Source of the DNA: Bacteroidales bacterium
GTDB taxonomy: Bacteria; Bacteroidota; Bacteroidia; Bacteroidales; UBA10428
DNA length: 64,000 bases
NCBI GenBank assembly: GCA_016931575.1
Contig: JAFGEO010000079.1
Coordinates: 24,853-88,852, forward strand
Direction: 5' to 3'
The notes below the pieces were generated by a model. That model ran no database searches. It was not told the DNA's origin and saw nothing but the letters and a program-made list of their open reading frames with translations. Shown one piece after another: positions 2,139 to 17,833 of the stretch (positions within the stretch are counted from its first letter, which is position 1; the number at the start of each line of letters is the position of its first letter). Both the position numbers and the translations under genes were made by a program.

Positions 2139-4625
2139 ATGCAACTTTCAGAATTAAGGACGGGAACAGAGGGGGTCATCTGCAAAATCAGGGGTAGGGG
2201 AGCATTCAGGCGCAGGATAATGGAAATGGGGTTTGTTAAAGGTAAGACTGTAAGGGTAATAAAGAACGCTCCGCTGAAAGATCCTATTGAATATGAGCTT
2301 TTGGGATACAGAGTATCATTGCGTAAATCCGAAGCCGAACTTATTGAGGTCAGACAGGATGTCATGACTGAAGAGACGAAAGTGAAAGATATTTTTTTTC
2401 GAAATGAGCGATCCGAACGAATCCTGGCACCCTTATTGGGAAATTCAATCAATGTGGCTTTTGTCGGAAATCCAAATGCAGGAAAAACATCCATATTTAA
2501 TTTTACCTCGCGGTCAAATGAGCATACCGGAAACTACTCCGGGGTGACCATTGATTCCAAGACTGCTGTACTGAAAAAATTCGGGCATACCTATCACATC
2601 ACCGACTTACCGGGGACATACTCTTTATCGGCCTATTCTCCGGAGGAACTTTTTGTCAGGGAGTACATTACTGATAAAATACCGGATGTAGTTGTAAATG
2701 TGGTCGATGCATCAAACCTCGAAAGAAACCTGTACCTGACAACCCAGCTCATTGACATGGATATTCGCGTAGTTCTGGCGTTTAATATGTACGATGAGCT
2801 TGAGAAGCGCGATGATCTCCTCGACCGCGAAATGCTTTCAAAATTATTGGGCATTCCCATTGTGCCCACGGTAGGTTCGAAGGGAAAAGGGATTGACGAT
2901 CTCCTTAAAAAAATCGCAGGAGTATTTAACGATACAGACAGTTACACACGCCATATCCATATCAATTACGGACAGGAAATAGAAGCTTCCATTGCCAGGA
3001 TCCAGGATTTGATAAAGGTTCCTGAAAACTTTAAAATAACTGACAGGGTTTCTTCCCGCTTTATTGCGATTAAATTGCTGGAAAAAGATCGCCATGTGGC
3101 CCAGTACATTGATTCTGCACCCAATCATGATGAGATCCTTGCCCTTGCAGAAAAGGAACGTAAACGCGTGGAAAACCTGATAGGCGAAGATATGGCATCG
3201 CTGCTGACCGAAAAGCGCTACGGTTTTATCAGCGGCGCGCTGCATGAAACATTTGAAAGGAATAAGCAGTACGAGGTCAGGACATCGGAGATCCTCGACA
3301 GCTTGCTGACCCATAAACTTTTTGGCTTTCCTTTCTTTATCTTTTTTATGTGGCTGATGTTTACAGCAACCTTTAAATTGGGGGCATATCCCCAGGGATG
3401 GATAGAAAGCGGGGTGTTGGAGCTAAACAAACTGCTTCATGATATCATGCCAGAGGGTTCCCTGCGTGACCTGCTCACCGAGGGGATTATAGGTGGGGTC
3501 GGGGGCGTAATCGTTTTCCTGCCTAATATTCTGATCCTGTTCCTTTTTATTTCATTTATGGAAGATTCGGGATACATGGCCCGCGCGGTATTTATCATGG
3601 ATAAGCTGATGCATAAAATTGGCCTGCATGGTAAGTCCTTTATTCCCCTCATTATGGGATTTGGATGCAATGTGCCGGCCATTATGGCTACCCGTACCAT
3701 TGAGGACAGGAATAACCGCATTCTGACGATCCTGATTAATCCCTTTATGTCCTGCTCGGCACGTTTACCGGTTTACCTTCTTTTGATCGGGGCCATTTTC
3801 CCGGCATATCAGGGAACCATTCTCTTTGGACTGTACTTTTTGGGCATTCTTATAGCTATTGGGGTAGCGATCCTGTTCAAGAAGCTCGTATTCAAGACCG
3901 AAGGGACCCCTTTTGTGATGGAACTGCCTCCATACCGTTTGCCTACACTGCGATCCTCTACCAAGCATATGTGGGGCAAGGGCTCGCAGTACCTGAAAAA
4001 AATGGGAGGGGTAATCCTCCTTGCTTCCATTCTCCTGTGGGCTTTGGGGTACTTCCCCAGACCAAAGGATGAGCCTGCCGGGGAAGAGACTACTGAAATT
4101 ATGCTGACTGTCAGCACGAACCCTGATGCGTCCAATCGCAGTCAAAACGTACAACTTGACCAGGAGGCTGATCCGGGGATTGAACAGTTGGAAAATTCGT
4201 ATATAGCACGTATCGGAAAATTTATCGAACCGGCAATCCGCCCCCTGGGCTTTGACTGGAAGATGGGGGTGAGCCTGTTGGCCGGTATTGCTGCCAAAGA
4301 GGTTGTTGTCAGCACACTGGGTGTGATGTACCACGAAGATGTTGAAGAAGACGGGGAGGAACTTTATTTGGCACAAAAGCTGAGATCCGAGAAGTATGTT
4401 AAAGGGCCTTACCAGGGGGAGCTCGTGTTCAATCCCCTGGCTACCTTGTCCTTTCTGGTCTTCGTGCTGATCTATTTCCCATGCATCGCTGTTTTTGCAG
4501 CCGTGAGGAAAGAAACCGGGAATATTGGCTGGGCTTTTCTGATGATCGGATACACAACAGTGCTTGCCTACCTGGTATCGCTGATGATCTTTCAGACAGG
4601 AAAATTGTTTACTATACTATTATGA
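2139..4625 (+). CDS. feoB: Ferrous iron transporter B with N-terminal fused FeoA domain
   Basis: FeoA-like first 75 aa, then G1 motif GNPNAGKTS, DLPGTYSL, and FeoB Gate/C regions. Confidence 0.95.
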   Translation: MQLSELRTGTEGVICKIRGRGAFRRRIMEMGFVKGKTVRVIKNAPLKDPIEYELLGYRVSLRKSEAELIEVRQDVMTEETKVKDIFFRNERSERILAPLLGNSINVAFVGNPNAGKTSIFNFTSRSNEHTGNYSGVTIDSKTAVLKKFGHTYHITDLPGTYSLSAYSPEELFVREYITDKIPDVVVNVVDASNLERNLYLTTQLIDMDIRVVLAFNMYDELEKRDDLLDREMLSKLLGIPIVPTVGSKGKGIDDLLKKIAGVFNDTDSYTRHIHINYGQEIEASIARIQDLIKVPENFKITDRVSSRFIAIKLLEKDRHVAQYIDSAPNHDEILALAEKERKRVENLIGEDMASLLTEKRYGFISGALHETFERNKQYEVRTSEILDSLLTHKLFGFPFFIFFMWLMFTATFKLGAYPQGWIESGVLELNKLLHDIMPEGSLRDLLTEGIIGGVGGVIVFLPNILILFLFISFMEDSGYMARAVFIMDKLMHKIGLHGKSFIPLIMGFGCNVPAIMATRTIEDRNNRILTILINPFMSCSARLPVYLLLIGAIFPAYQGTILFGLYFLGILIAIGVAILFKKLVFKTEGTPFVMELPPYRLPTLRSSTKHMWGKGSQYLKKMGGVILLASILLWALGYFPRPKDEPAGEETTEIMLTVSTNPDASNRSQNVQLDQEADPGIEQLENSYIARIGKFIEPAIRPLGFDWKMGVSLLAGIAAKEVVVSTLGVMYHEDVEEDGEELYLAQKLRSEKYVKGPYQGELVFNPLATLSFLVFVLIYFPCIAVFAAVRKETGNIGWAFLMIGYTTVLAYLVSLMIFQTGKLFTILL

Positions 4626-4936: not shown

Positions 4937-5566
4937 GTGCGACTGTCATTTTTATGCATTTTCATTACGAAACATATACACATAGTGAAAAAACTAACTT
5001 TAGGGCAAATCGTCGAAGGTATCCGAAAGCGGGATAATGCTGTCCTGTCGGTTATCTATAAGGAAATCTTTCCCGTTGTCCGATACTATGTGATGGCCAA
5101 TGGCGGAACCCAGGAAGACGCTAAGGACGTGTTCCAGGAATCCATGATCATCGTTTTCAGGAAAATATCAAGGGACTCGGTTGAAATTACTACCGGCTTC
5201 GAAGCTTATCTCTATGGAATTGCCAGAATGGTGTGGCTTAAAATCCTAAGAAACAGGGATATTCATGACCGTAACATCGTTAAGCTCGAAGAACCCGAGG
5301 TGGGCTATTATGAGAATGATGAGCTGATGGAGGAGGACCTGGAAATGCGCTTGTTCAGAAAGTATTTCCTTAAACTGGGTAAGGAATGCCAGGATCTCCT
5401 TACAATGATCTCTGAGGAAGTTCCCTATGAGACGATCGCTAAGCAAATGGGATATAAGAATGAGAAAGTTGTCCGGAACAAGAAATATAAATGCAAGGAA
5501 GTCCTGATGAAGATGATAAAGTCGGATCGGGAGTATCAGAAGATTGCCGCCAGGCTTAAAAAGTAA
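4937..5566 (+). CDS. ECF-like sigma-70 family RNA polymerase sigma factor (start may be GTG at 4985)
   Basis: Region 2-like EDAKDVFQESMIIVFRKI and region 4-like ECQDLLTMISEEVPYETIAKQMGYKNEKVVRNKKYKCKEVL. Confidence 0.8.
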   Translation: MRLSFLCIFITKHIHIVKKLTLGQIVEGIRKRDNAVLSVIYKEIFPVVRYYVMANGGTQEDAKDVFQESMIIVFRKISRDSVEITTGFEAYLYGIARMVWLKILRNRDIHDRNIVKLEEPEVGYYENDELMEEDLEMRLFRKYFLKLGKECQDLLTMISEEVPYETIAKQMGYKNEKVVRNKKYKCKEVLMKMIKSDREYQKIAARLKK

Positions 5567-8390
5567 GCTTTCTTCTTTTTCGGATGTACCAGGCAATTCC
5601 TGCAAGGGCTGCGAGGAAAAGAGCCGATATTCCCAGTATCCACCAATTTGAGTCCTCAGGTTCTTCAGTATAAAGCGGGTCAGGATTGCCCACTACTGAA
5701 AATGCAGACCAGAAGAAGGGATGCGAAGCTTCAGGCAGGCATTCCTTCAGGTACTTGAGCTTAGCCAGACGCAAGGCTTCAGACTTGGACTTACCCTTTC
5801 TTAATTGTGCATAAAACTCGACCATCAGGAGGGATCCCGACAAATCTTCAACTTCCCACATGGTCATTACCATGCTGGGGGTACCTGCGTATGCGAATCC
5901 CCTTGCCAGACTAAGGACACCTTCCCCTTTACTGTATTCACCCTCGCCGGTACTGCAAGCGCTGAGAACTACCATCCGGGCATTCAGGTCAAGCCCGAAT
6001 ACCTCATAAGTGTTTAGCAATCCGTCATGCAGACTGTCTGGTTCCGGGGCAAAAATCAACTTGGAATAAAGCGGGTTCTTATTATCCAGGATCGCGTGCA
6101 TCGCCAGGTGGATGATATCGTATTGTGCAACTTTTTCGCGGAAGGTCTTCTCGGTGGCACTGAACCTGGAGAAAACATCAGCCTTCATGGTTTTCTTAAG
6201 CATCTTGGCTTCGTTCAGTGCCCCGGGGATGGGATTGAGCTTAAGGTTTAATTCGAGGGCGGAACGTTGTGTATATTTCTCCCGCTGAACCTCTTCGGGT
6301 AATAATCCATACGAGGGAGCAAAGGCCAGCAGCTTGTTGACATTTTTCCTTGGCCGCTGTTCAATGCCCTTAATATACAGAGTTGAAGAAAAGGCATAGG
6401 AGATATTGTAATCAAGCAGCAGGTAATCGAGGTTTTTATAGCTTGTGTATCCGTTAGCAGAGGGCATGCTGCGGATGAGTGTCTCAAAGGGCAGGTAGGA
6501 GAGTACATCATCCGGAACTACGATCAGGTGGGTGGCTTTAAGCTTGCTGGCAAAGGGTTCAATCAATAATTGATACAGGTAATGGCTCTGTTCGCAGAAC
6601 AAGCTGAAATCTTTTCCCGACTGCCGGCTGAAATCAAAATGATGAAAATTATCCAGGTATGCCCGGACGATAGTATCAAATTCCCCTGGGACCATCTGTG
6701 CACAGTAGTCTATGGAATTTCCCGTGATACAAAAGGTGTGGAGCGCTGTATCGGTCAGGTTATACTGAAGCACAGCATACTCATTTCCCAGGTGTTTTTG
6801 TAAGTCTGCAATCCCGGAAACGCTGGGGTCATACTTCAGTTGATGGTACTTTGGGAATTCCTTTTCAAACAGATCGACAAGCCTGGTATACTGTTTGAAG
6901 GCTTCAAAATAGCGGGATTCCCATTCGGCAAGCCTGAGGCTGTCCGGAACTCCCTTTTGCTTTTCCTCATAGATACTGGCCTTATATAATCCCAAACGGG
7001 TATCCAGGTCCTTTTCCTTCCTCAGCAGGGAATCCGGTATTCCTCCAAGGTCTTTGGCATTTAGTTCACGCAGGGTGGAGAGCAGGATGGCTGATTTTGA
7101 GCGTTCCGACACGTTGAAAGCCTTGCGGATCAGGTCAACTCTGTCCAGCTGGTCATAACTCAATGCAATCAGATCCAGGCTGTTATTAAATATCTCGTAC
7201 TGGTAGCTGGCAATTCTGATCTTACTTTCATAGTGAAGTTTGCTGTTACGCAGGCTTTCTATGATTTCCAGTGCGAGCAGATCGCACTCCAGGGCTTCTG
7301 AAAGATAGTTGGCATCCCCGCTGCCTGAGAAAAGTTCAAGGAAGCATTTGCTTTTCGATTTGAGAATGGTAATGGAAATTAATTGATCGTCAATAATTTC
7401 CAGTTTCGGGTTGTCAAATACATCCTGGGGGGAAAATTTCGGGGATGCGACCGTAAGTGCTTCCTGATAATAGCTTAGGGCTTCCTGGTATTTCGCTTGT
7501 TTGAGTAATAAAGAGCCGTAGCTGTCCAGTACGTATGCTTTTGAGAATAAGCCCTCTGTGTCTGTCTTTTTATAGATTGACAGGGCATACTCGAGATATT
7601 GCTTTGCTTTCTCCAGTTCTCCGGTTTTGATATAATCCATCCCCAGATTGTTATAGGTAAGCGCTATACTTTTGGTGCTCGCGTCGGGGTCTTTTTTCAG
7701 CTCAGTTAAAGCACTCTCCTGGAGCATAATGCTTTTCTGCAGATCTCCCCTTTTGGCATAAATATCCGCCATGCCCGACAGAATTGAGTAGCGTAAGAAA
7801 TGATTCCCTGTCAGGTCGGCATACTTTAAATTCTGGGTATAATAGGAGAGGGCGAGGTCATAATTCTCCTGATACCATTCATTTTCTGCTATTCTGTATA
7901 TTAGGGCGGCTACCCGTGCAACCGGAGGATCGCTGGTTGCCGAATAGATTTGCCGGGCCTTTTTCAGCGCAATGCCCGCCTGGAGGTGATCCCCCAGGTT
8001 GATATAGGTCCTTCCCATGTAGGTGTATAAATGGGCTAAAATTAACGGATCGCAGTCCGGACAGTTTTTGTGATTCCTTTCAGCCTCTTGTAAATAATAA
8101 AGGGATGAGTCGTACTCCCAGGTTTGGATATGCCCTATTGCGAGGTTGACGTAGCTACTGACCATCTCGGAAGAATTTTCCGGATACAGCCTTTTCCGGA
8201 TCCCATGGATCTTTCGGATGAGGCGAAGCGATTCCTCCTGATCTCCCCTTGCCATCGAATTTTTTGCCGACTCCAGCAGGGTCTGTATGGAATCCTGAGG
8301 TGAGGTTTGCGAATGCAAGGGAATGGTTCTTCCAGCCCCGAAAAGCAGGATTAAAAAAAGGGCGCGCATGAAAGTTCCGGTTCGGGTCAT
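5556..8390 (-). CDS. TPR-repeat CHAT-domain putative protease with signal peptide and C-terminal TM anchor
   Basis: N-terminal hydrophobic signal, multiple TPRs, CHAT core with HLAMHA (His) and VVLSACSTGEG (Cys), C-terminal WWILGISALFLAALAGIAWYIRKRRK. Confidence 0.9.
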   Translation of the reverse strand: MTRTGTFMRALFLILLFGAGRTIPLHSQTSPQDSIQTLLESAKNSMARGDQEESLRLIRKIHGIRKRLYPENSSEMVSSYVNLAIGHIQTWEYDSSLYYLQEAERNHKNCPDCDPLILAHLYTYMGRTYINLGDHLQAGIALKKARQIYSATSDPPVARVAALIYRIAENEWYQENYDLALSYYTQNLKYADLTGNHFLRYSILSGMADIYAKRGDLQKSIMLQESALTELKKDPDASTKSIALTYNNLGMDYIKTGELEKAKQYLEYALSIYKKTDTEGLFSKAYVLDSYGSLLLKQAKYQEALSYYQEALTVASPKFSPQDVFDNPKLEIIDDQLISITILKSKSKCFLELFSGSGDANYLSEALECDLLALEIIESLRNSKLHYESKIRIASYQYEIFNNSLDLIALSYDQLDRVDLIRKAFNVSERSKSAILLSTLRELNAKDLGGIPDSLLRKEKDLDTRLGLYKASIYEEKQKGVPDSLRLAEWESRYFEAFKQYTRLVDLFEKEFPKYHQLKYDPSVSGIADLQKHLGNEYAVLQYNLTDTALHTFCITGNSIDYCAQMVPGEFDTIVRAYLDNFHHFDFSRQSGKDFSLFCEQSHYLYQLLIEPFASKLKATHLIVVPDDVLSYLPFETLIRSMPSANGYTSYKNLDYLLLDYNISYAFSSTLYIKGIEQRPRKNVNKLLAFAPSYGLLPEEVQREKYTQRSALELNLKLNPIPGALNEAKMLKKTMKADVFSRFSATEKTFREKVAQYDIIHLAMHAILDNKNPLYSKLIFAPEPDSLHDGLLNTYEVFGLDLNARMVVLSACSTGEGEYSKGEGVLSLARGFAYAGTPSMVMTMWEVEDLSGSLLMVEFYAQLRKGKSKSEALRLAKLKYLKECLPEASHPFFWSAFSVVGNPDPLYTEEPEDSNWWILGISALFLAALAGIAWYIRKRRKLTF

Positions 8391-8419
8391 GAGTATCGGG
8401 GCTCGGAGCCTCTAAAATA

Positions 8420-8440
8420 GAAAATTTCATCAAAATTTTC
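8420..8440. promoter_or_regulatory. Perfect 8-bp inverted repeat upstream of CHAT gene (candidate operator)
   Basis: GAAAATTT-CATCA-AAATTTTC, 30-50 bp upstream of the CHAT start. Confidence 0.35.
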
Positions 8441-8561
8441 ACATCTGTAAGTAGTTGAAAAACAATATGATGTAATTTTTTTTAAAAAAAGTTGCAAAAA
8501 AGCGGGGACATTTTGGGGGGAAGTGGAACATATATATACAACATCTTTAAACCCCGAGAAA

Positions 8562-8708
8562 ATGAAAAACGCTAAAAGAACAGTTTTAAAAATGAATAAT
8601 GAATTATTCGCTAACCAGGAATTAAGTTATAACGACATGCTGGCTGTCAGAGGTGGTGAAAAAGGAAAAGACGATCAGGGAGGTGAAGCCAGTGACGGCC
8701 TGACTTAA
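8562..8708 (+). CDS. Small GG-leader peptide, candidate natural-product/bacteriocin-type precursor (ORF track start 8523 is GTG; ATG at 8562 preferred)
   Basis: MKNAKRTVLKMNNELFANQELSYNDMLAVRGG|EKGKDDQGGEASDGLT; leader ends in LxxxxMLAVRGG; C39 exporter in same locus. Confidence 0.8.
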   Translation: MKNAKRTVLKMNNELFANQELSYNDMLAVRGGEKGKDDQGGEASDGLT

Positions 8709-8765: not shown

Positions 8766-8848
8766 AGGCGAGATAAATAATGGTTTATACGGCACACAAT
8801 CTCTATTCCTATCCTTTTCAGGATTTTGTCTCGCCTCCTTTTTTTTTA
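8766..8848 (+). terminator. Candidate terminator after the GG-peptide gene, long loop
   Basis: AGGCGAGATAAA (8766-8777) pairs with TTTGTCTCGCCT (8825-8836), followed by a T tract. Confidence 0.5.
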
Positions 8849-9113: not shown

Positions 9114-9890
9114 ATGAAACAGGAAATGGACTATTCAGGGTATGTGGATAGGTACCTGGATGGCATTATGAGCCCTGAAGAAGAAAAATGGTTTAAAAAG
9201 GAGCTTGAGGGGAATTCCTTCCTTGAGCAGGAACTGGAGTTTCAATCTAAACTAAACCAGAGTATTAGCCAAAGGGAACTTATTGAGCTGGAAGACCAGC
9301 TGAATACCATCTACAAAAACACCTACAATCCCGTATCCCGGTTTGCAAAGATCAAAAGGAAGACAGTTGCAATTAGTGCGGCAGCTGTTGTTGCATCCCT
9401 TATGATCTATTTTGCGGCCAGTTATTGGATTAACCGGCCAGAGGATCTTGCGCTGCAATTTTCTTCCCCACTGGATTTATATGCCTCCTACTATCAACCG
9501 GCTGAAATGAGCATGAGTTTCAGGGCGGCCGGTGATGTGGTTGACAGTGAGCTCAGGGAGGCTATGAAACTCTATGATCGGAAGGAATATTCAGAGGCGA
9601 TTTTACTCTTTGAAAAAATTCTCAGCGATGATGCCTCCCGGATAGGCTTAAACCTTTACTCGGGAATTTCTCACATGGAATTAGAAGAGTATACTGAAGC
9701 GAATACAAGTTTCAGGAAAATTATCGATGACAGGTCCAATGCATTCATTGAATCGGCAGAGTGGTACCTTGGGCTGTGTTATCTGAAAACTGAAGATGTT
9801 GAATTATCAAAACAGGTATTCGAGAATATTGCCAGCGGAAGCAGCTATTATAAGGCTGATGCGGAGCGTATTTTGAATTTACTTGAATAA
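9114..9890 (+). CDS. Anti-sigma-like single-TM protein with C-terminal TPR
   Basis: N-terminal YVDRYLDGIMSPEEEKWFKKELEGN resembles Bacteroidetes anti-sigma N-termini; one TM (VAISAAAVVASLMIYFAASYW); TPR-like C-terminus. Confidence 0.65.
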   Translation: MKQEMDYSGYVDRYLDGIMSPEEEKWFKKELEGNSFLEQELEFQSKLNQSISQRELIELEDQLNTIYKNTYNPVSRFAKIKRKTVAISAAAVVASLMIYFAASYWINRPEDLALQFSSPLDLYASYYQPAEMSMSFRAAGDVVDSELREAMKLYDRKEYSEAILLFEKILSDDASRIGLNLYSGISHMELEEYTEANTSFRKIIDDRSNAFIESAEWYLGLCYLKTEDVELSKQVFENIASGSSYYKADAERILNLLE

Positions 9891-10010: not shown

Positions 10011-10940
10011 ATGGGTTTTACAGGTTCTATTTCGGGGGCTTTTCAGAAATTGCGTCATGCTTTTATTAAAAAGCCGGATACGGGGAAAGATGTTGAACTC
10101 GAGTATCTTCATAAGCGGGTGATCTTTCTGGAACAGCTCCTGGAAGAAAAGAACGACTGTATTGAAAAAGCCAAATCAAGTTTCCTGAAAAACCTTTACC
10201 ATGAAATTCGAACTCCTTTGAATGCTATTATCGGGTTCTCAGACCTCATTGAGTTAAACAATATCAGGGGTCATGAAAAGGATGAGTATGTGAAGCACAT
10301 TCGTGAAAGCAGTCGTGAATTTTTGCGAAAGATGGATAACATCATTGAAGCCTCCATTATTGAAGCAGGGCTTCTGAAGATACAGAAGGAGCAGTGCCGG
10401 CTCCATGAGCTCATGAGCGAGATTCACTCCTATTTTTCACTTCACAAACACATTACTGAAAAACATATTGCCTTCCTTTTGAGTATTCCGGGGGAACTAA
10501 AGAAAACTGAGGTGATCTGTGATATTTTCAGGCTTACCCAGGTGTTGACGCACCTGATCAACAACGCCTTCAAATACACCTTTAAGGGGGTTGTGGAGAT
10601 AGGTTGTGCTGTGGAAGACAAGAATCTGCTCTTTTTTGTTAAGGACAGCGGAATTGGCGGGTTGGAGGGTCTGGAGGCGACGATCTTCAAAAATTTCTCC
10701 AAGAAGGGTGATGTCAGTGAGGAACAGGAAGGGCTTGGTCTGGGCCTGGGACTGTCAAAAAGTATTGTGGAACAGATGGGTGGCACAATTTGGTATGAAT
10801 CCCTGAAAGAGAAGGGAACAACCTTCTATTTCACAATTCCTTACCAACCTGTCTACGTTAAGAGACGAAAGAGACAGACAGTGATCACCAGGGATTTGAT
10901 CCTTAGCGAGAGGTTGTATAAAAGGTCAGTGATCGTTTAG
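10011..10940 (+). CDS. Soluble histidine kinase (HisKA-HATPase) without recognisable sensor domain
   Basis: H-box FLKNLYHEIRTPLNAIIGFSDLI, G box GLGLGLGLSKSIVEQMGGTIW, no TM or PAS. Confidence 0.85.
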   Translation: MGFTGSISGAFQKLRHAFIKKPDTGKDVELEYLHKRVIFLEQLLEEKNDCIEKAKSSFLKNLYHEIRTPLNAIIGFSDLIELNNIRGHEKDEYVKHIRESSREFLRKMDNIIEASIIEAGLLKIQKEQCRLHELMSEIHSYFSLHKHITEKHIAFLLSIPGELKKTEVICDIFRLTQVLTHLINNAFKYTFKGVVEIGCAVEDKNLLFFVKDSGIGGLEGLEATIFKNFSKKGDVSEEQEGLGLGLGLSKSIVEQMGGTIWYESLKEKGTTFYFTIPYQPVYVKRRKRQTVITRDLILSERLYKRSVIV

Positions 10941-11013: not shown

Positions 11014-13203
11014 ATGCCTAAATTCCCTGTTTTCCTGCAACGTGATGCCAATGATTGCGGACCCTCCTGCCTGAGGATGATCGCTGCACATTATGGCAGA
11101 ACTTACAGCCTTGAATCATTAAGGGATAAATCGTTCATCAACCGACAGGGGGTTTCCCTGTTGGGGATCAGTGATGCTGCTGAGTCTATCGGTTTTCGTA
11201 CCCGGGGACTAAAGCTGAGTTTTGAACAGCTCAGGAAGGATATACAGTTACCCTGCATCGTTCATTGGAATCAGTCGCATTTCGTTGTGGTTGTTCGTGC
11301 AGGGAAGGAAAAGGTGGTGGTAGCCGATCCGGCATTTGGTATCATCACCCACAGCAGGGCAGAGTTCCTGAAATGCTGGGCATCCACCATAGAGGATGGC
11401 GAACCGCTGGGGATTTGCCTGCAATTGCAGCCCGGTCCTGAGTTTTACCAGTTACTGGGGGAACAGGTGAATCGGAAAAGCCTCGGGTTCCTTGTCCGCT
11501 ATCTGAAACCATACAAAAAACTTATCTGGCAGATCCTGCTGGGTGTTATCCTGGGAGCATTGCTGCAGGTCATTTTCCCCTTTCTTTTTCAGACCATTGT
11601 CGATAAGGGGGTGATCGTACCCAACCTCACGCTGATCATCACCATACTCATAGCCCAACTCATCCTGGTGACAAGCAGGTTTTCGCTTGAACTGATCCGG
11701 AACTGGATCATACTGCATCTGGGAGCCCGGGTGAATATCTTTCTGGTATCTGATTTTCTGATCAAGCTCATGCAGTTGCCCGTATCCTTCTTTGACAGCA
11801 GGAACAGGGGCGATTTGCTTCAGCGGGTCGCTGATCACAGGCGGATTGAAAAATTTCTCACCCAGACCACCATAGAGTTGTTCCATTCGGTGTTTTCCAT
11901 AAGCATTATGGGCATTGTTCTGGCACTATTCGATATACGGATTTTCCTGATCTTTCTGTCAGGAAGTGTGCTATACCTGCTATGGGCCCTGCGATTCATG
12001 AAACTCCGGCGGGAACTTGACAACCGCAAGTTTGCACAGCTTTCTGATAATCAAAGCTCCTTGATCCAGCTACTGACCGGAATGCATGAGATCAAGCTCA
12101 ATCACTGTGAGAAACGTAAGCGCTGGGAGTGGGAAGATATCCAGGCCAGGCTCTTCAGGATAAATTTGAAAAGCCTTTCTTTACAGCAGAAGCAGCGTGC
12201 CGGGGCATTAATATTCAATCAGTACAAAGATGTACTCATTGTTGTGTACGCTGCAGTGATGGTATTCAATGGACAGATGACATTGGGAAGCCTGGTAGCC
12301 ATTTCATATGTTATCGGTCAGTTGTCAGGTCCTATCGACCAGTTGATCGATTTCCTTCATGAAACACAGGATGCCAGGATCAGTCTTGACCGACTGGCTG
12401 AGATCCATGAAAAGGAAATTGAAGAAAATGTGGACAGCAGTCCCCTATTCAGCCTGACATCAGCTCATGCTATCACAGTTCAGGGACTTTCATTTCAGTA
12501 TGAAGGACCCCATTCCCCTTTTGTTCTTAAGGGGCTTGACCTGGTTATTCCTCAGGATAAGGTTACGGCAATCGTGGGAATTAGTGGAAGTGGTAAAACC
12601 ACCCTTGTGAAAATGCTGCTTCAGTTTTACAAAGCCGTAGAAGGGGATATTTTTGTAGGCGACACCAATCTGCAGGAAATCAGTCCGGCATTTTGGCGCA
12701 GGCAATGCGGAGTTGTCATGCAGGATGGTTACCTGTTTTCGGATACCATTGCCCGGAACATTGCACTTTCTGACGAACAGATTGATAAAGAAAAACTGGT
12801 TTATGCCTCGCGGATGGCCAATATTCAGGAGATGGTCGGCAGCCTGCCCCTGGGTTACAATACTAAAATTGGTCCCGACGGACTAGGTCTCAGCCAGGGA
12901 CAAAAGCAACGTTTACTTATTGCCCGGGCATTGTATAAAGATCCTTCTTTCCTTTTCTTCGATGAAGCGACAAATTCTCTGGATGCCAATAATGAGCGGG
13001 TAATTATGGAAAACCTGTTTGAGTTTTTTAAGGGAAGGACGGTAGTAGTTGTGGCGCACCGTCTGAGTACGGTTAAAAATGCCGATCAGATTGTTGTGCT
13101 TGAAAAGGGGGAGATCATAGAACGGGGAAATCATAAGGAGCTGACAGGGAAAAAGGGAGCATACTATAACCTGGTAAGGAATCAACTTGAACTGGGTACA
13201 TAA
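11014..13203 (+). CDS. Peptidase-containing ABC transporter (C39 peptidase, TM domain, ATPase)
   Basis: C39 motif QRDANDCGPSCLRMIAAHYG, SHFVVV and DPAFG; Walker A GISGSGKTT, signature LSQGQKQR, FFDEATNSLD. Confidence 0.95.
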   Translation: MPKFPVFLQRDANDCGPSCLRMIAAHYGRTYSLESLRDKSFINRQGVSLLGISDAAESIGFRTRGLKLSFEQLRKDIQLPCIVHWNQSHFVVVVRAGKEKVVVADPAFGIITHSRAEFLKCWASTIEDGEPLGICLQLQPGPEFYQLLGEQVNRKSLGFLVRYLKPYKKLIWQILLGVILGALLQVIFPFLFQTIVDKGVIVPNLTLIITILIAQLILVTSRFSLELIRNWIILHLGARVNIFLVSDFLIKLMQLPVSFFDSRNRGDLLQRVADHRRIEKFLTQTTIELFHSVFSISIMGIVLALFDIRIFLIFLSGSVLYLLWALRFMKLRRELDNRKFAQLSDNQSSLIQLLTGMHEIKLNHCEKRKRWEWEDIQARLFRINLKSLSLQQKQRAGALIFNQYKDVLIVVYAAVMVFNGQMTLGSLVAISYVIGQLSGPIDQLIDFLHETQDARISLDRLAEIHEKEIEENVDSSPLFSLTSAHAITVQGLSFQYEGPHSPFVLKGLDLVIPQDKVTAIVGISGSGKTTLVKMLLQFYKAVEGDIFVGDTNLQEISPAFWRRQCGVVMQDGYLFSDTIARNIALSDEQIDKEKLVYASRMANIQEMVGSLPLGYNTKIGPDGLGLSQGQKQRLLIARALYKDPSFLFFDEATNSLDANNERVIMENLFEFFKGRTVVVVAHRLSTVKNADQIVVLEKGEIIERGNHKELTGKKGAYYNLVRNQLELGT

Positions 13204-14540
13204 TGAAAGGGATGATCATAAGCGATAAGGACCGGGAAAAAGCGCAGGGTGTTGAACTGCGCAGCGAGCAGCTCAGGGATATCCTTGGGCAGGTGCCGCG
13301 TTGGATCGTGCGCTATGGGACGGTATTGATCTTCCTGATCATTCTGGTTCTTTTTATTGGTTCGGCCCTGCTGCGATATCCCGATGTAATTGCCGCCCGG
13401 CTGGTTCTCACAACCGAGACTCCACCTGTCCAGCTTATTGCCAAAAAGACATCCAAAATATGCAGCCTGCTGGTTGATGATAAGTCACCGGTAGCAGAGG
13501 GACAGCTGCTGGCTGTTTTGACATCTTCTGCTGATTACCGCGATGCCTTAAACCTCAGGAAATTGCTTGGGGAGCGTTTTATCTATGACTCCTTGATTGT
13601 CACAAATTTTCCTGATAAACTCAAGCTGGGGATGATGCAGGAAAGTTATGCGGGCTTTCAGAAACGCCGACAGGAGAATCTGAGTTTTATTGAACAGGAT
13701 AATTACAGGCGGATGATCCGCTTCTATGAAGGTAATTTAGGCAAATATAGCCGACTGGTCGGGGATAAAAAGGCTGAGGCTGAAGCAGCCGGACAGGTTT
13801 ACGGTCTGGCCAGAAAGAAATACATGAGGGATTCCACCCTGATGGTGCAGTCTCCACGAAGCATTGCTCCGGCTGAAGTTGAAAGATCGGAGCAGGAAAT
13901 GCTTGAGACCCTGAGGGCCTGGAGATCTGCCAGGGCGCAATTATCCACTGCAGATATAGAACTATCAAATCTGCAGCAACAAATGCTCTCTAAACAACTG
14001 GAATATGAAGAGGCTGTCAGCAGGCAGCAGCAAGCTCTCCAGGAAGCCTATGAGGCGCTTATCGGACAGCTGGCCGATTGGGAAGACCTGTATATTCTCA
14101 GGGCTCCATTTAGCGGAAAGGCATCCTTTATCCGGATTTGGAGCGAGTCCCAGAATGTTCAGCAGGGAGATGTAGTGCTGACCATATTGCCCCTTGAAGA
14201 GGGGAATATCCTTGGGAAAGCCATGCTCGATATGGAAGGCATCGGGAAGATCAAAGCAGATCAGAAAGCCATTATCCGCTTTGCAAATTATCCCTACATG
14301 GAATTTGGCACGCTCAGCGGCACAGTGACATCCATCTCCCTGGTCCCTGTAGAGGGCTCTTATATGGCAGAAATCCGGCTGGATAGCAACAGGCTGATAA
14401 CCAACTATGGAAAGGAACTTGAATTTCAGCAAAATATGCAGGGAATTGCAGAAATTATCACGGGCGATCGTTCCCTGCTGCAACGCATTACCGACCCATT
14501 CCGCTCGGCATTCAGAAGACAGCGGATGCTTGATGAGTAA
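13203..14540 (+). CDS. HlyD-family membrane fusion/adaptor protein
   Basis: Single N-terminal TM, coiled-coil hairpin, lipoyl-like segments; overlaps stop of ABC exporter. Confidence 0.85.
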   Translation: MKGMIISDKDREKAQGVELRSEQLRDILGQVPRWIVRYGTVLIFLIILVLFIGSALLRYPDVIAARLVLTTETPPVQLIAKKTSKICSLLVDDKSPVAEGQLLAVLTSSADYRDALNLRKLLGERFIYDSLIVTNFPDKLKLGMMQESYAGFQKRRQENLSFIEQDNYRRMIRFYEGNLGKYSRLVGDKKAEAEAAGQVYGLARKKYMRDSTLMVQSPRSIAPAEVERSEQEMLETLRAWRSARAQLSTADIELSNLQQQMLSKQLEYEEAVSRQQQALQEAYEALIGQLADWEDLYILRAPFSGKASFIRIWSESQNVQQGDVVLTILPLEEGNILGKAMLDMEGIGKIKADQKAIIRFANYPYMEFGTLSGTVTSISLVPVEGSYMAEIRLDSNRLITNYGKELEFQQNMQGIAEIITGDRSLLQRITDPFRSAFRRQRMLDE

Positions 14541-14590: not shown

Positions 14591-17500
14591 TTATTCGGCC
14601 ACCGGAAGTGTGAATATAAAGGTAGTCCCTACGTTCACTTCACTTTGAATGGTGATGGTGCCCTTGTTTTTTTCAACGAACTCTTTACAGATGATAAGAC
14701 CAAGACCGGTTCCGCTTTCGCCCGCTGTTCCCGAGGTAGAAAAATATTCATCAATATGGAAAAGCTTTTGAATATTTTCCTCAGCGATGCCGACGCCTGT
14801 ATCGGCAATTGAGATGGATATCATATCGCTATTCTGTTCATCCATCTCACAATGAATCGTGACGATGCCCCCTTCACTGGTGAATTTAATCGCATTACTC
14901 AGCAGGTTCCGGATAACCAGGTTGATCATATTCCGGTCGGCATATGCCTGTTTTGTACAACGGACATCGGATACCAGTTCCAGGTGTTTATTTTCGGCAC
15001 TTGCCTGGCTCAGCTCGATATTCTGTTGGATAATTTCACCAATATTGATAGTATCCGGATTGTATTTTATTCTTTCGGTTTGAGTTCTGGCCCACTGAAG
15101 CAAATTCTCCAGGAGGTTGTAAGCACTTTCCGAAGAAGATTTTATCATGCCCAGCAGCTCCATTTTCTGAGGATTTTCGAATTCATCGTAATTCCGCATC
15201 AACAACTCCGAAAATCCAAAGATGGCCTGGAAAGGATTCTTCAGGTCATGGGCAATAATTGAGAAGAACTTATTTTTTGTAGCATTAAGTTCTTCAAGCT
15301 GCGTATTTGTTTTCTTAAGGATTTGGGCCTGCTTGTTAATTTCTTCCGATTGGTTTTGGATTTTCTCCTGCCGCTCTTCCAGGATGATATTCACTTCCTG
15401 GAGGTTTTGGGCCTGTTCACGCAGCTGTTCCTCTGCACGTTTCTGTTTGGTTATATCCCTTCCGATCCCTACAATCCCGCATATTTTTCCGTCGGCATCC
15501 CGAAAAGGAACTTTGGTTGTGGAGATTACCCTCTCGCGCAGGTTTTCATCGTAGCCGATCTCCTCCTTATTGATGATGGGCTTTCCGCTTTCAATGATTT
15601 TTTTATCATCTTCAAGATAGACTTTCGCGGCTTCTTTTGAAGGTGCGGTTTCGAAATCCGTTTTTCCGACAATCATGTCCAGATTATTAAATTTCATCAC
15701 ATTGAGAAGCCGTTTGTTAACTGTCAGGAAACGACTTTCAATATCTTTAATATAAATGTAATCGGGCATGTTGTCGATGAGGGTCCTCAGGAGGGTACGC
15801 TCGCTTTCAAGAATTTTGTTCTGTTCGCCAAGGGACTCAGATTGCTTTTGAATTTCTTCCTGGCGTTCTTCAAGGAGCATGTTGTTATTCTTCAGATCGG
15901 CAGCCTGTTTCTTGAGAGTTTCCTCATAGGCTTTAATATCTGTGATATCCCGGCCCACGCCGACGATACCGGCAACTTTGCCTTCCGCATCGTAAAACGG
16001 GACCTTGGAAGTCAGGATGATCCTTTCATTTCCATCAATATCCATTCCCAACTCCTCTTTGGAGATGAGCGGTTTTTCCGTTTTTATGATATTCTGCTCA
16101 TCCTTATAAAACTCCTCAGCCATTTTTTTCGGGAAATAGTCGAAATCGGTTTTCCCTTCAAGTTGTTCAAATTCAGGCACTTTCATTACTGTATGTACCT
16201 GCTTGTTTGCGACAATAAACCGACTTTCCTTATCTTTGATATAAATAAAGTCAGGCAGAGTGTCAATGAGGGTTCGGAGCAGGTTGCGTTCATTTTCCAA
16301 CAGGTTATTATGAGATGCAAGTTCACTGGCCTGCTGTTGGATTTCTTCCTGTCGTTCCTCAAGCAGCACATTAGCTTCCTTCAGGTGTTCGGCCTGCTCC
16401 TGAAGCTTGATTTCAGTCTCCTTCTCAGCGGTGATATCCCTGCTGATGCCTATCATGCCGACAATTTCTCCTTCCGGATTGAAGAACGGTACCCTGGAGG
16501 TGAGCAGTTTGATGAAGTTTCCATTTTCATCAAAGCCGATTTCTTCAAATTCATACTGTGCAATTCCGGTGCGCAGAACCGAGATATCTGCTTCGTGGTG
16601 CCTGGCTGCATAATCCGCCGGTAGAAAATCTTCAACGGTCCTGCCGATGATAAGATCAAGGTCGTTAGTTTTCAGGACTCCCATCTCCTTCTTATTGACG
16701 GTTATGTAACGTCCGTCGGTGTCTTTCAGATAGGCATAATCCGGGATACTGTCAATGAAGGTCCGGAGAAGGTTCCGTTCCTCTTCAAGCATTTTATTTT
16801 GAGTGCTTAGCTCATCGGACTGCTGGTTTATTTCTTCCTGTCGTTCTTCCAGGAGTACATTAATCTCCTGAAGGCTCTGAGCCTGTTCTTTTAGTTTTTC
16901 TTCTGCTTCCTTTTGCCGGGTAATATCCCTTCCTATGCCTACCAGGCCAATGATATTGCCCTCACTGTCGCGGAATGGGACCTTCGTGGTAGATTTAACC
17001 AGGATGTTCCCATCGGCATCAAATCCGATTTCTTCTTTATTTATTACTGGTTTACCTGACTCGAGTACATGCTTGTCATCCTTATAAAATATCTCAGCGA
17101 TATCCCGGGGATAGAAATCAAAATCCGTTTTTCCCAGCAGGTTTTGATGTGTTCCGGCCTTGGTAATTGTTACCTGGCAGATATTTCCGTCCAGGAATCG
17201 GCATTCAGTGTCTTTTATGTAGATAGTATCCGGCATATTATCCATCAGGGCGCGGAACAGTGAACGTTCTTTTTCAAGGGTGGAATTCTTTTCCTCAAGC
17301 AGGGTGGATGCTATCTCCTGTTCCGTGATATCGGAGCAGGTCGCCATTATTCCAAGGATCCTGCCCTTTTTATTTTTCACAGGGACTTTCTTTACCAGGA
17401 TCGTTCCGGTTGAGCCATCCAGATCATAGCTAACCTTCTTTTTAATGAAGGATTTGATCCCGTTCAGAATCTGAATGTCCTCATCGATTTGATCCTGATT

Positions 17501-17833
17501 GTCAGCATTCTGAAAAAGTTCTTCATCGGTTTTTCCATAGATTTCTTCCGGAGAGGGCATTTTAATGTAATCTGCATAACGATTATTGCTCAAAACATAG
17601 CGCATCGAATTATCCTTGATATATATTCCGTCGGGGCTGTTGTTAATCAGAATGTTTAACTGATCGCTCTCGTCGAAAATGCTCTCGGCGGTAATATAAA
17701 TCCCTCTTAGCTTTCTTCTGTGGATATAGCGGTAGATCAGAAGGCCTCCAAACGTGGCGGATACCCCAATGAGAAATGCTAAAACTGCTGGGAATAAAAT
17801 TCCAACAGGGATAATTTGAAGAATAACATTCAT
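14591..17833 (-). CDS. Multi-PAS sensor histidine kinase with five PAS modules
   Basis: Repeated LLRTLIDxxPDxxYIKDxxxRF...GIGRDIT modules joined by similar LEERQEEIQ linkers; HDLKNPFQAIFGFSELL H-box. Confidence 0.9.
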   Translation of the reverse strand: MNVILQIIPVGILFPAVLAFLIGVSATFGGLLIYRYIHRRKLRGIYITAESIFDESDQLNILINNSPDGIYIKDNSMRYVLSNNRYADYIKMPSPEEIYGKTDEELFQNADNQDQIDEDIQILNGIKSFIKKKVSYDLDGSTGTILVKKVPVKNKKGRILGIMATCSDITEQEIASTLLEEKNSTLEKERSLFRALMDNMPDTIYIKDTECRFLDGNICQVTITKAGTHQNLLGKTDFDFYPRDIAEIFYKDDKHVLESGKPVINKEEIGFDADGNILVKSTTKVPFRDSEGNIIGLVGIGRDITRQKEAEEKLKEQAQSLQEINVLLEERQEEINQQSDELSTQNKMLEEERNLLRTFIDSIPDYAYLKDTDGRYITVNKKEMGVLKTNDLDLIIGRTVEDFLPADYAARHHEADISVLRTGIAQYEFEEIGFDENGNFIKLLTSRVPFFNPEGEIVGMIGISRDITAEKETEIKLQEQAEHLKEANVLLEERQEEIQQQASELASHNNLLENERNLLRTLIDTLPDFIYIKDKESRFIVANKQVHTVMKVPEFEQLEGKTDFDYFPKKMAEEFYKDEQNIIKTEKPLISKEELGMDIDGNERIILTSKVPFYDAEGKVAGIVGVGRDITDIKAYEETLKKQAADLKNNNMLLEERQEEIQKQSESLGEQNKILESERTLLRTLIDNMPDYIYIKDIESRFLTVNKRLLNVMKFNNLDMIVGKTDFETAPSKEAAKVYLEDDKKIIESGKPIINKEEIGYDENLRERVISTTKVPFRDADGKICGIVGIGRDITKQKRAEEQLREQAQNLQEVNIILEERQEKIQNQSEEINKQAQILKKTNTQLEELNATKNKFFSIIAHDLKNPFQAIFGFSELLMRNYDEFENPQKMELLGMIKSSSESAYNLLENLLQWARTQTERIKYNPDTINIGEIIQQNIELSQASAENKHLELVSDVRCTKQAYADRNMINLVIRNLLSNAIKFTSEGGIVTIHCEMDEQNSDMISISIADTGVGIAEENIQKLFHIDEYFSTSGTAGESGTGLGLIICKEFVEKNKGTITIQSEVNVGTTFIFTLPVAE

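Follow-up and report, generated by a model that had tools for sequence, protein, structure and literature searches.

Most known examples of peptide quorum sensing come from Gram-positive bacteria, and to our knowledge no comparable peptide system has been described in Bacteroidales. The most similar described peptides are the ComC/BlpC and EntF-type pheromones and bacteriocin inducers, in which a short, Cys-free core follows a Gly-Gly (GG) leader and the locus includes a C39-ABC exporter and a kinase. The cassette analyzed here has all of these features, as well as LytTR regulators in one clade. However, it is found in Gram-negative bacteria, its kinase lacks a membrane sensor, and its conserved core comprises an ECF sigma factor, an anti-sigma-like protein and a CHAT protease.

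A second resemblance is to the Csx29-Csx30-CASP-sigma system of type III-E CRISPR, in which an ECF sigma factor is inhibited by Csx30, and Csx30 is in turn cut by Csx29 (PMC10028731). The present locus also has a TPR-CHAT protease, with catalytic His and Cys, adjoining an ECF sigma factor and a presumed inhibitor. In contrast to that system, it has no CRISPR part, the protease is predicted to be membrane-anchored and periplasmic, and a peptide takes the place of RNA as the putative trigger. DdvA, a transmembrane anti-sigma factor (PDB 8rot), is the top structural match by E-value of the CHAT model, but here different genes encode the anti-sigma part and the CHAT part, and the global TM-score is only 0.25.

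The leader resembles those of the Bacteroidetes GG precursors modeled by TIGR04149, PF14406 and TIGR04194, but scores fall below the cut-offs, no maturase is present and the gene context is different. Bacteroidetocins, which are toxins related to class IIa bacteriocins (PMC6671954), are likewise made by Bacteroidetes, whereas the core studied here is acidic and hydrophilic. No description of the cassette was found in a literature search that lay mostly outside subscription papers, so an earlier description is possible, and CHAT was not mentioned in the RiPP surveys searched for it. The individual parts have known relatives, but their combination was not found in the literature searched.

A GG-leader peptide gene within a regulatory cassette

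The window is a 64,000-nucleotide stretch of a Bacteroidales genome assembly (4.82 Mb in 168 contigs). The features relevant to the peptide are as follows.

2139-4625, FeoB, named from its sequence
4937..5566, + strand, ECF-type RNA polymerase sigma-70 factor
5556..8390, - strand, TPR-CHAT protease, a predicted envelope protein
8412..8424, strand not assigned, conserved block CTAAAATAGAAAA upstream of the CHAT start
8504..8537, + strand, predicted ECF-type promoter of the peptide gene (GGGGACATTT ... GTGGAACATATATAT)
8562..8708, + strand, GG-leader peptide gene (leader 8562-8657, core 8658-8705, stop 8706-8708)
8767..8848, + strand, terminator-like stem-loop 3' of the peptide gene
9114..9890, + strand, membrane protein, presumed anti-sigma factor
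10011..10940, + strand, cytosolic histidine kinase
11014..13203, + strand, C39 peptidase-ABC transporter (PCAT)
13203..14540, + strand, HlyD-family periplasmic adaptor

The peptide gene encodes 48 amino acids, comprising a leader of 32 residues (MKNAKRTVLKMNNELFANQELSYNDMLAVRGG), which ends in NDMLAVRGG, and the core EKGKDDQGGEASDGLT. The opposite strand is interrupted by stops. As the initial annotation had proposed, the core is Cys-free and hydrophilic; it contains a single Leu. Profile searches reveal no modifying enzyme between FeoB (2139) and HlyD (14540), in line with that annotation. Conservation of the leader was also borne out, in that G31 and G32 are invariant in 50 aligned relatives. 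The Gly-Gly end and the hydrophobic positions preceding it (DMLAVRGG) are those of a C39 substrate, and a C39 exporter with conserved catalytic residues is encoded 2.3 kb downstream. Cleavage at the GG site followed by export is therefore a likely fate of the peptide.

Relatives of the peptide have cores of 10-33 amino acids with a mean charge of -2.9 that are rich in Pro, Asp, Ile and Gly, and only 1 of 66 contains Cys. The core sequence diverges between clades, whose motifs include DEDIL(L/I)xDP, DDDLWPP and DPIIKxxxPPIII. Within the genus of the window the cores are short, and several carry a terminal hydrophobic pair (HDLL, PELL, GIILK, GIIKK, GLLKN); the window peptide has DGLT, and its core is missing the PP/DLWPP-type motif of distant relatives. 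For 171 pairs selected at a protein identity of at least 55%, pN/pS averages 0.42, with 0.36 in the leader and 0.53 in the core. This selection biases the ratio downwards; with that bias kept in mind, the value of about 0.42 points to purifying selection. The open reading frame is almost certainly a real, translated gene.

Another proposal of the initial annotation, that the leader fits the GG-Bacteroidales pattern of TIGR04149, was not upheld. The window peptide has no match to this model (GG_sam_targ_CFB, curated cut-off 25 bits) even at E values up to 1, and 7 of 50 peptide relatives touch it, with a best E value of 3.2e-4. No protein in the whole genome exceeds the TIGR04149 cut-off, and only sub-threshold matches occur elsewhere (L001-L003). 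The sole NCBIfam match of the window peptide is to TIGR04194, the grasp-with-spasm A peptide, where it scores 19 bits and the cut-off is 33 bits, and the ATP-grasp/SPASM partner is absent from the locus. Searches of Pfam and NCBIfam with the window peptide gave nothing over a cut-off, and its relatives match only weakly. The peptide is single copy in its genome, so the paralogous precursors with the same leader that had been suggested as a check are not present.

Some loci encode more than one peptide. In L110, L113, L114, L167 and L197, the cassette holds two or three GG peptides that resemble each other and lie in tandem. The divergent GG peptides of L196 and L206 have cores with internal D-(I/L)-x-x-PD(L/I)T repeats, and possibly yield several peptides per precursor.

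The protease, the anti-sigma-like protein and the exporter

The sigma factor matches Pfam Sigma70_r2 over its cut-off and the sigma70-ECF model TIGR02937 at 43.1 bits (cut-off 42.9), and it is syntenic in relatives. The adjacent TPR-CHAT protein scores 202.9 bits with CHAT (PF12770) and has an N-terminal hydrophobic signal and a C-terminal transmembrane (TM) segment. By a simple hydropathy rule, both membrane features are present in 52 of 56 relatives, and the protease is therefore predicted to face the periplasm. In an alignment, every relative that spans the catalytic His and Cys has both residues. An apparent absence of the Cys from many CHAT proteins was an artefact of a regular-expression pattern, as the alignment shows LSSC for LSAC. 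The AF2 model of the protease (pLDDT 84) has the anti-sigma factor DdvA, Csx29 and separase as top fold matches, all at low TM-scores (global values of 0.25-0.33 for DdvA and Csx29, query-normalised). By sequence, the TPR region is closest to engineered TPR proteins and kinesin light chain.

The product of the 9114-9890 gene consists of an anti-sigma-like N-terminal domain of three helices, a TM helix at about residues 86-106 and a C-terminal TPR domain, according to an AF2 model (pLDDT 84) whose nearest folds are TPR structures. A TM segment is found in 75 of 79 relatives. Pfam and sequence profiles detect the TPR part alone, so the proposed role of the N-terminal domain rests on its predicted three-helix shape, the topology and synteny. 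Because its homologue directly follows the sigma gene in sister (type B) cassettes, described below, the protein is a likely anti-sigma factor.

The exporter has Peptidase_C39, ABC_membrane and ABC_tran domains. Across the aligned transporters, the C39 Gln, Cys and His are present in all 39 and the Asp in 38, which supersedes a lower count (17 of 38 intact) from an over-strict pattern. The HlyD-family adaptor matches PF13437 over its cut-off and TIGR01843 at 98.7 bits, below the cut-off of 208.65. The locus encodes no TolC-like outer-membrane component, and the core may therefore remain periplasmic. The histidine kinase at 10011-10940 shows only HisKA and HATPase_c over cut-offs, with no membrane or sensor domain seen. 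It therefore cannot sense the outside directly, and does not look like the membrane receptor kinase of peptide pheromone systems. A large histidine kinase with repeated PAS-like segments (14591-17833, - strand) lies behind the cassette and is syntenic in the genus.

Distribution in Bacteroidales

Relatives of the TPR protein were gathered from the family, the order and 80 named loci, and the named relatives are mostly metagenome-assembled Bacteroidales. Type A cassettes are defined by a reversed CHAT gene, a gap, the TPR protein and the kinase, with PCAT/HlyD downstream or upstream. In type B cassettes the TPR protein directly follows the sigma gene and the kinase is absent. All 47 type A cassettes with the kinase present and the gap intact have a GG open reading frame on the expected strand of the gap between the CHAT and anti-sigma genes, compared with 2 of 47 when the opposite strand of these gaps is read as a control. 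Among type B cassettes the figure is 1 of 11, and that one looks spurious. The difference between types is significant (Fisher p 2e-10), as is that in loci with full flanks for a PCAT gene within the flank (29 of 35 type A loci, a set that includes a few unclassified loci, versus 0 of 5 type B; p 7e-4), but both p-values overstate independence because the loci are related by descent. Six of the 35 type A loci are without a nearby PCAT, and the peptide-bearing genomes checked have C39 elsewhere.

Four same-genus genomes (G003, G004, G005 and G006) have the gene order of the window, and two more (G007 and G008) match it in part on short contigs. In G001 the exporter is not adjacent to the cassette. 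Wherever the gap is present on a same-genus contig, it contains a GG peptide. Screened independently with nothing but the peptide profile, 295 genomes from the order gave matches that mostly lie beside a reversed CHAT gene, and at a stricter threshold 2 of 397 genomes in a phylum-wide sample matched, including that of the window. The recurrence of the cassette in many uncultured Bacteroidales is suggestive of a type of peptide signal that would be new for these bacteria.

Several cassettes depart from the common arrangement. In L128 (7868-8001), peptide and kinase are both lost, and the promoter directly precedes the anti-sigma gene. The clade with DLWPP cores (L139:9497-10325, L161:9565-9918) has a kinase-like protein without a HATPase_c match, and between its gene and PCAT lie one or two stand-alone LytTR genes.

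Promoter, stem-loop and regulon

The bipartite block at 8504..8537 has no match in 100 shuffles of the window, and the same bipartite shape precedes the peptide genes of relatives. The genus version is GG(T/G)GACATTT...GTGGAAC(A/T)TA, and other clades carry their own versions. A GT[ACG]AC or GGGAC core lies upstream of 56 of 66 peptide genes; shuffles gave a rate of 0.17 for GT[ACG]AC-type cores, a slightly different pattern. Each locus has only this one such match, invariably on the strand of the peptide. Transcription of the peptide gene from this ECF-type promoter is very probable. The block at 8412..8424 is conserved in six same-genus loci and is a possible promoter element of the CHAT gene.

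In one clade, the motif GTGTCACAAA...CGACATGTA has 15 matches in 14 of 19 genomes (13 single, one double), and none when the motif is reversed as a control. This amounts to essentially one copy per 3-5 Mb genome, so the regulon can be read from sequence alone. The second copy of this clade promoter, in G413:C400 (L231), precedes a secreted Fib_succ_major lipoprotein.

In the genus of the window, the promoter stands before other genes as well. One of them (G003:C57, L216) encodes a secreted Peptidase_S74 protein that has a T9SS-type tail match below threshold, and another, in the window's own genome (G000:C68, L215), is an apparent remnant of a Peptidase_S74-type gene. Promoter-like versions, recognized by eye, precede Peptidase_S74 homologues in G005 (L233) and G006 (L234). 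In three of these four loci, 7 to 10 consecutive C residues lie close to the start codon, and such tracts could switch the reading frame, which suggests phase variation.

The stem-loop at 8767..8848 is single copy in the genome, and its loop motif (GGTTTWWACGGCAC / GGTTTTAACGGCAC) is conserved in same-genus loci. A search against Rfam gave nothing meaningful. The stem in L118 differs from that of the window, with compensating changes (GGCAGAAT/ATTCTGCC), and sequence conservation of the element exceeds the needs of a plain terminator.

Possible functions of the peptide

We regard the peptide as most likely the secreted product of an ECF-sigma regulatory module. In the model that best explains the data, the sigma factor of the locus would transcribe the peptide gene via the dedicated promoter. 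The C39 domain of PCAT would then cut after Gly-Gly, and PCAT with HlyD would export the acidic core to the periplasm or outside. The TPR surface of the envelope-anchored protease, the membrane anti-sigma protein, or both, might sense the peptide. Perhaps CHAT then cuts the anti-sigma protein, and the freed sigma factor would drive autoinduction of the peptide and, in this genus, expression of a secreted surface protein. The open reading frame, cassette, promoter and catalytic residues are conserved as described, and we infer the pairing of sigma with anti-sigma factor, the cleavage and the export. Taken as a whole, the model has about an even chance of being correct. The peptide would be an output of the ECF-sigma/anti-sigma/CHAT-protease switch, and probably its signal as well; judged separately, the case that it signals to the module is evenly balanced. 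A more specific version, which would amount to a new class of peptide communication in Gram-negative bacteria, is possible but rather doubtful. In it, the periplasmic reader of a C39-processed peptide pheromone would be a membrane-anchored, caspase-like TPR-CHAT protease that destroys a membrane anti-sigma factor, which would form an autoinducing ECF-sigma switch for the peptide and a phase-variable surface protein in many genera of one order of Bacteroidota.

Association with the sigma factor and CHAT may also mean that the peptide is only an output and not the input. It could be an exported effector, such as a matrix, surface or inter-species factor, that is switched on by sigma and CHAT with no feedback. 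This would account for the dedicated promoter, for the presence of the same promoter before secreted proteins in the genus and for the divergence of cores between clades. However, the peptide gene is embedded among the regulators, always with CHAT on one side and the anti-sigma gene on the other. L128 has lost it jointly with the kinase, and the promoter of many genomes precedes the peptide gene only, so no other output is visible there. We therefore consider a pure output unlikely. Somewhat less probable is a role other than signaling, in which the TPR-CHAT protease would have the peptide as its substrate, pro-peptide or inhibitor. The reversed CHAT gene is its most constant neighbor, even where downstream genes differ, and CHAT is predicted to face the periplasm, where an exported core would go. 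Yet the GG leader and C39 exporter already provide a processing route, type B cassettes have CHAT without any peptide, and no conserved cut site is apparent among the cores.

Export of a GG-leader peptide by PCAT and HlyD is also the classic route of bacteriocins, but a class II-type bacteriocin or microcin is improbable given cores that are short, acidic, hydrophilic and nearly always Cys-free, the regulatory neighbors, and the absence of a recurring immunity-type gene among the genes of at least 90 amino acids that were clustered from 42 loci. The precursor of a modified natural product, such as a graspetide-like or radical-SAM RiPP, is highly improbable. In its favor is the weak similarity of the leader to TIGR04194 and PF14406, in both cases below the cut-offs, whereas ATP-grasp, SPASM, YcaO and LanM genes are absent from the window cassette, and the recurrent families of the same 42 loci are the cassette genes and clade-specific flanking genes. 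One of the latter, in the flank of a single clade, looks radical-SAM-like and resembles QueE. The conserved leader, the lack of a modifying enzyme, the C39 exporter and the regulatory neighbors together favor a signal or protease-linked peptide, and signaling is favored over a bacteriocin, as the initial annotation had supposed.

If the signaling model is true, envelope-anchored CHAT proteases would have a natural trigger, in the form of a tiny peptide linked to a caspase-like protease and an ECF sigma/anti-sigma pair, and peptide signaling would become testable in a major phylum. The genome of the window also carries a second sigma/anti-sigma-type pair, of type B (G000:C162, L055:7056-8358), with no CHAT gene in the stretch examined.
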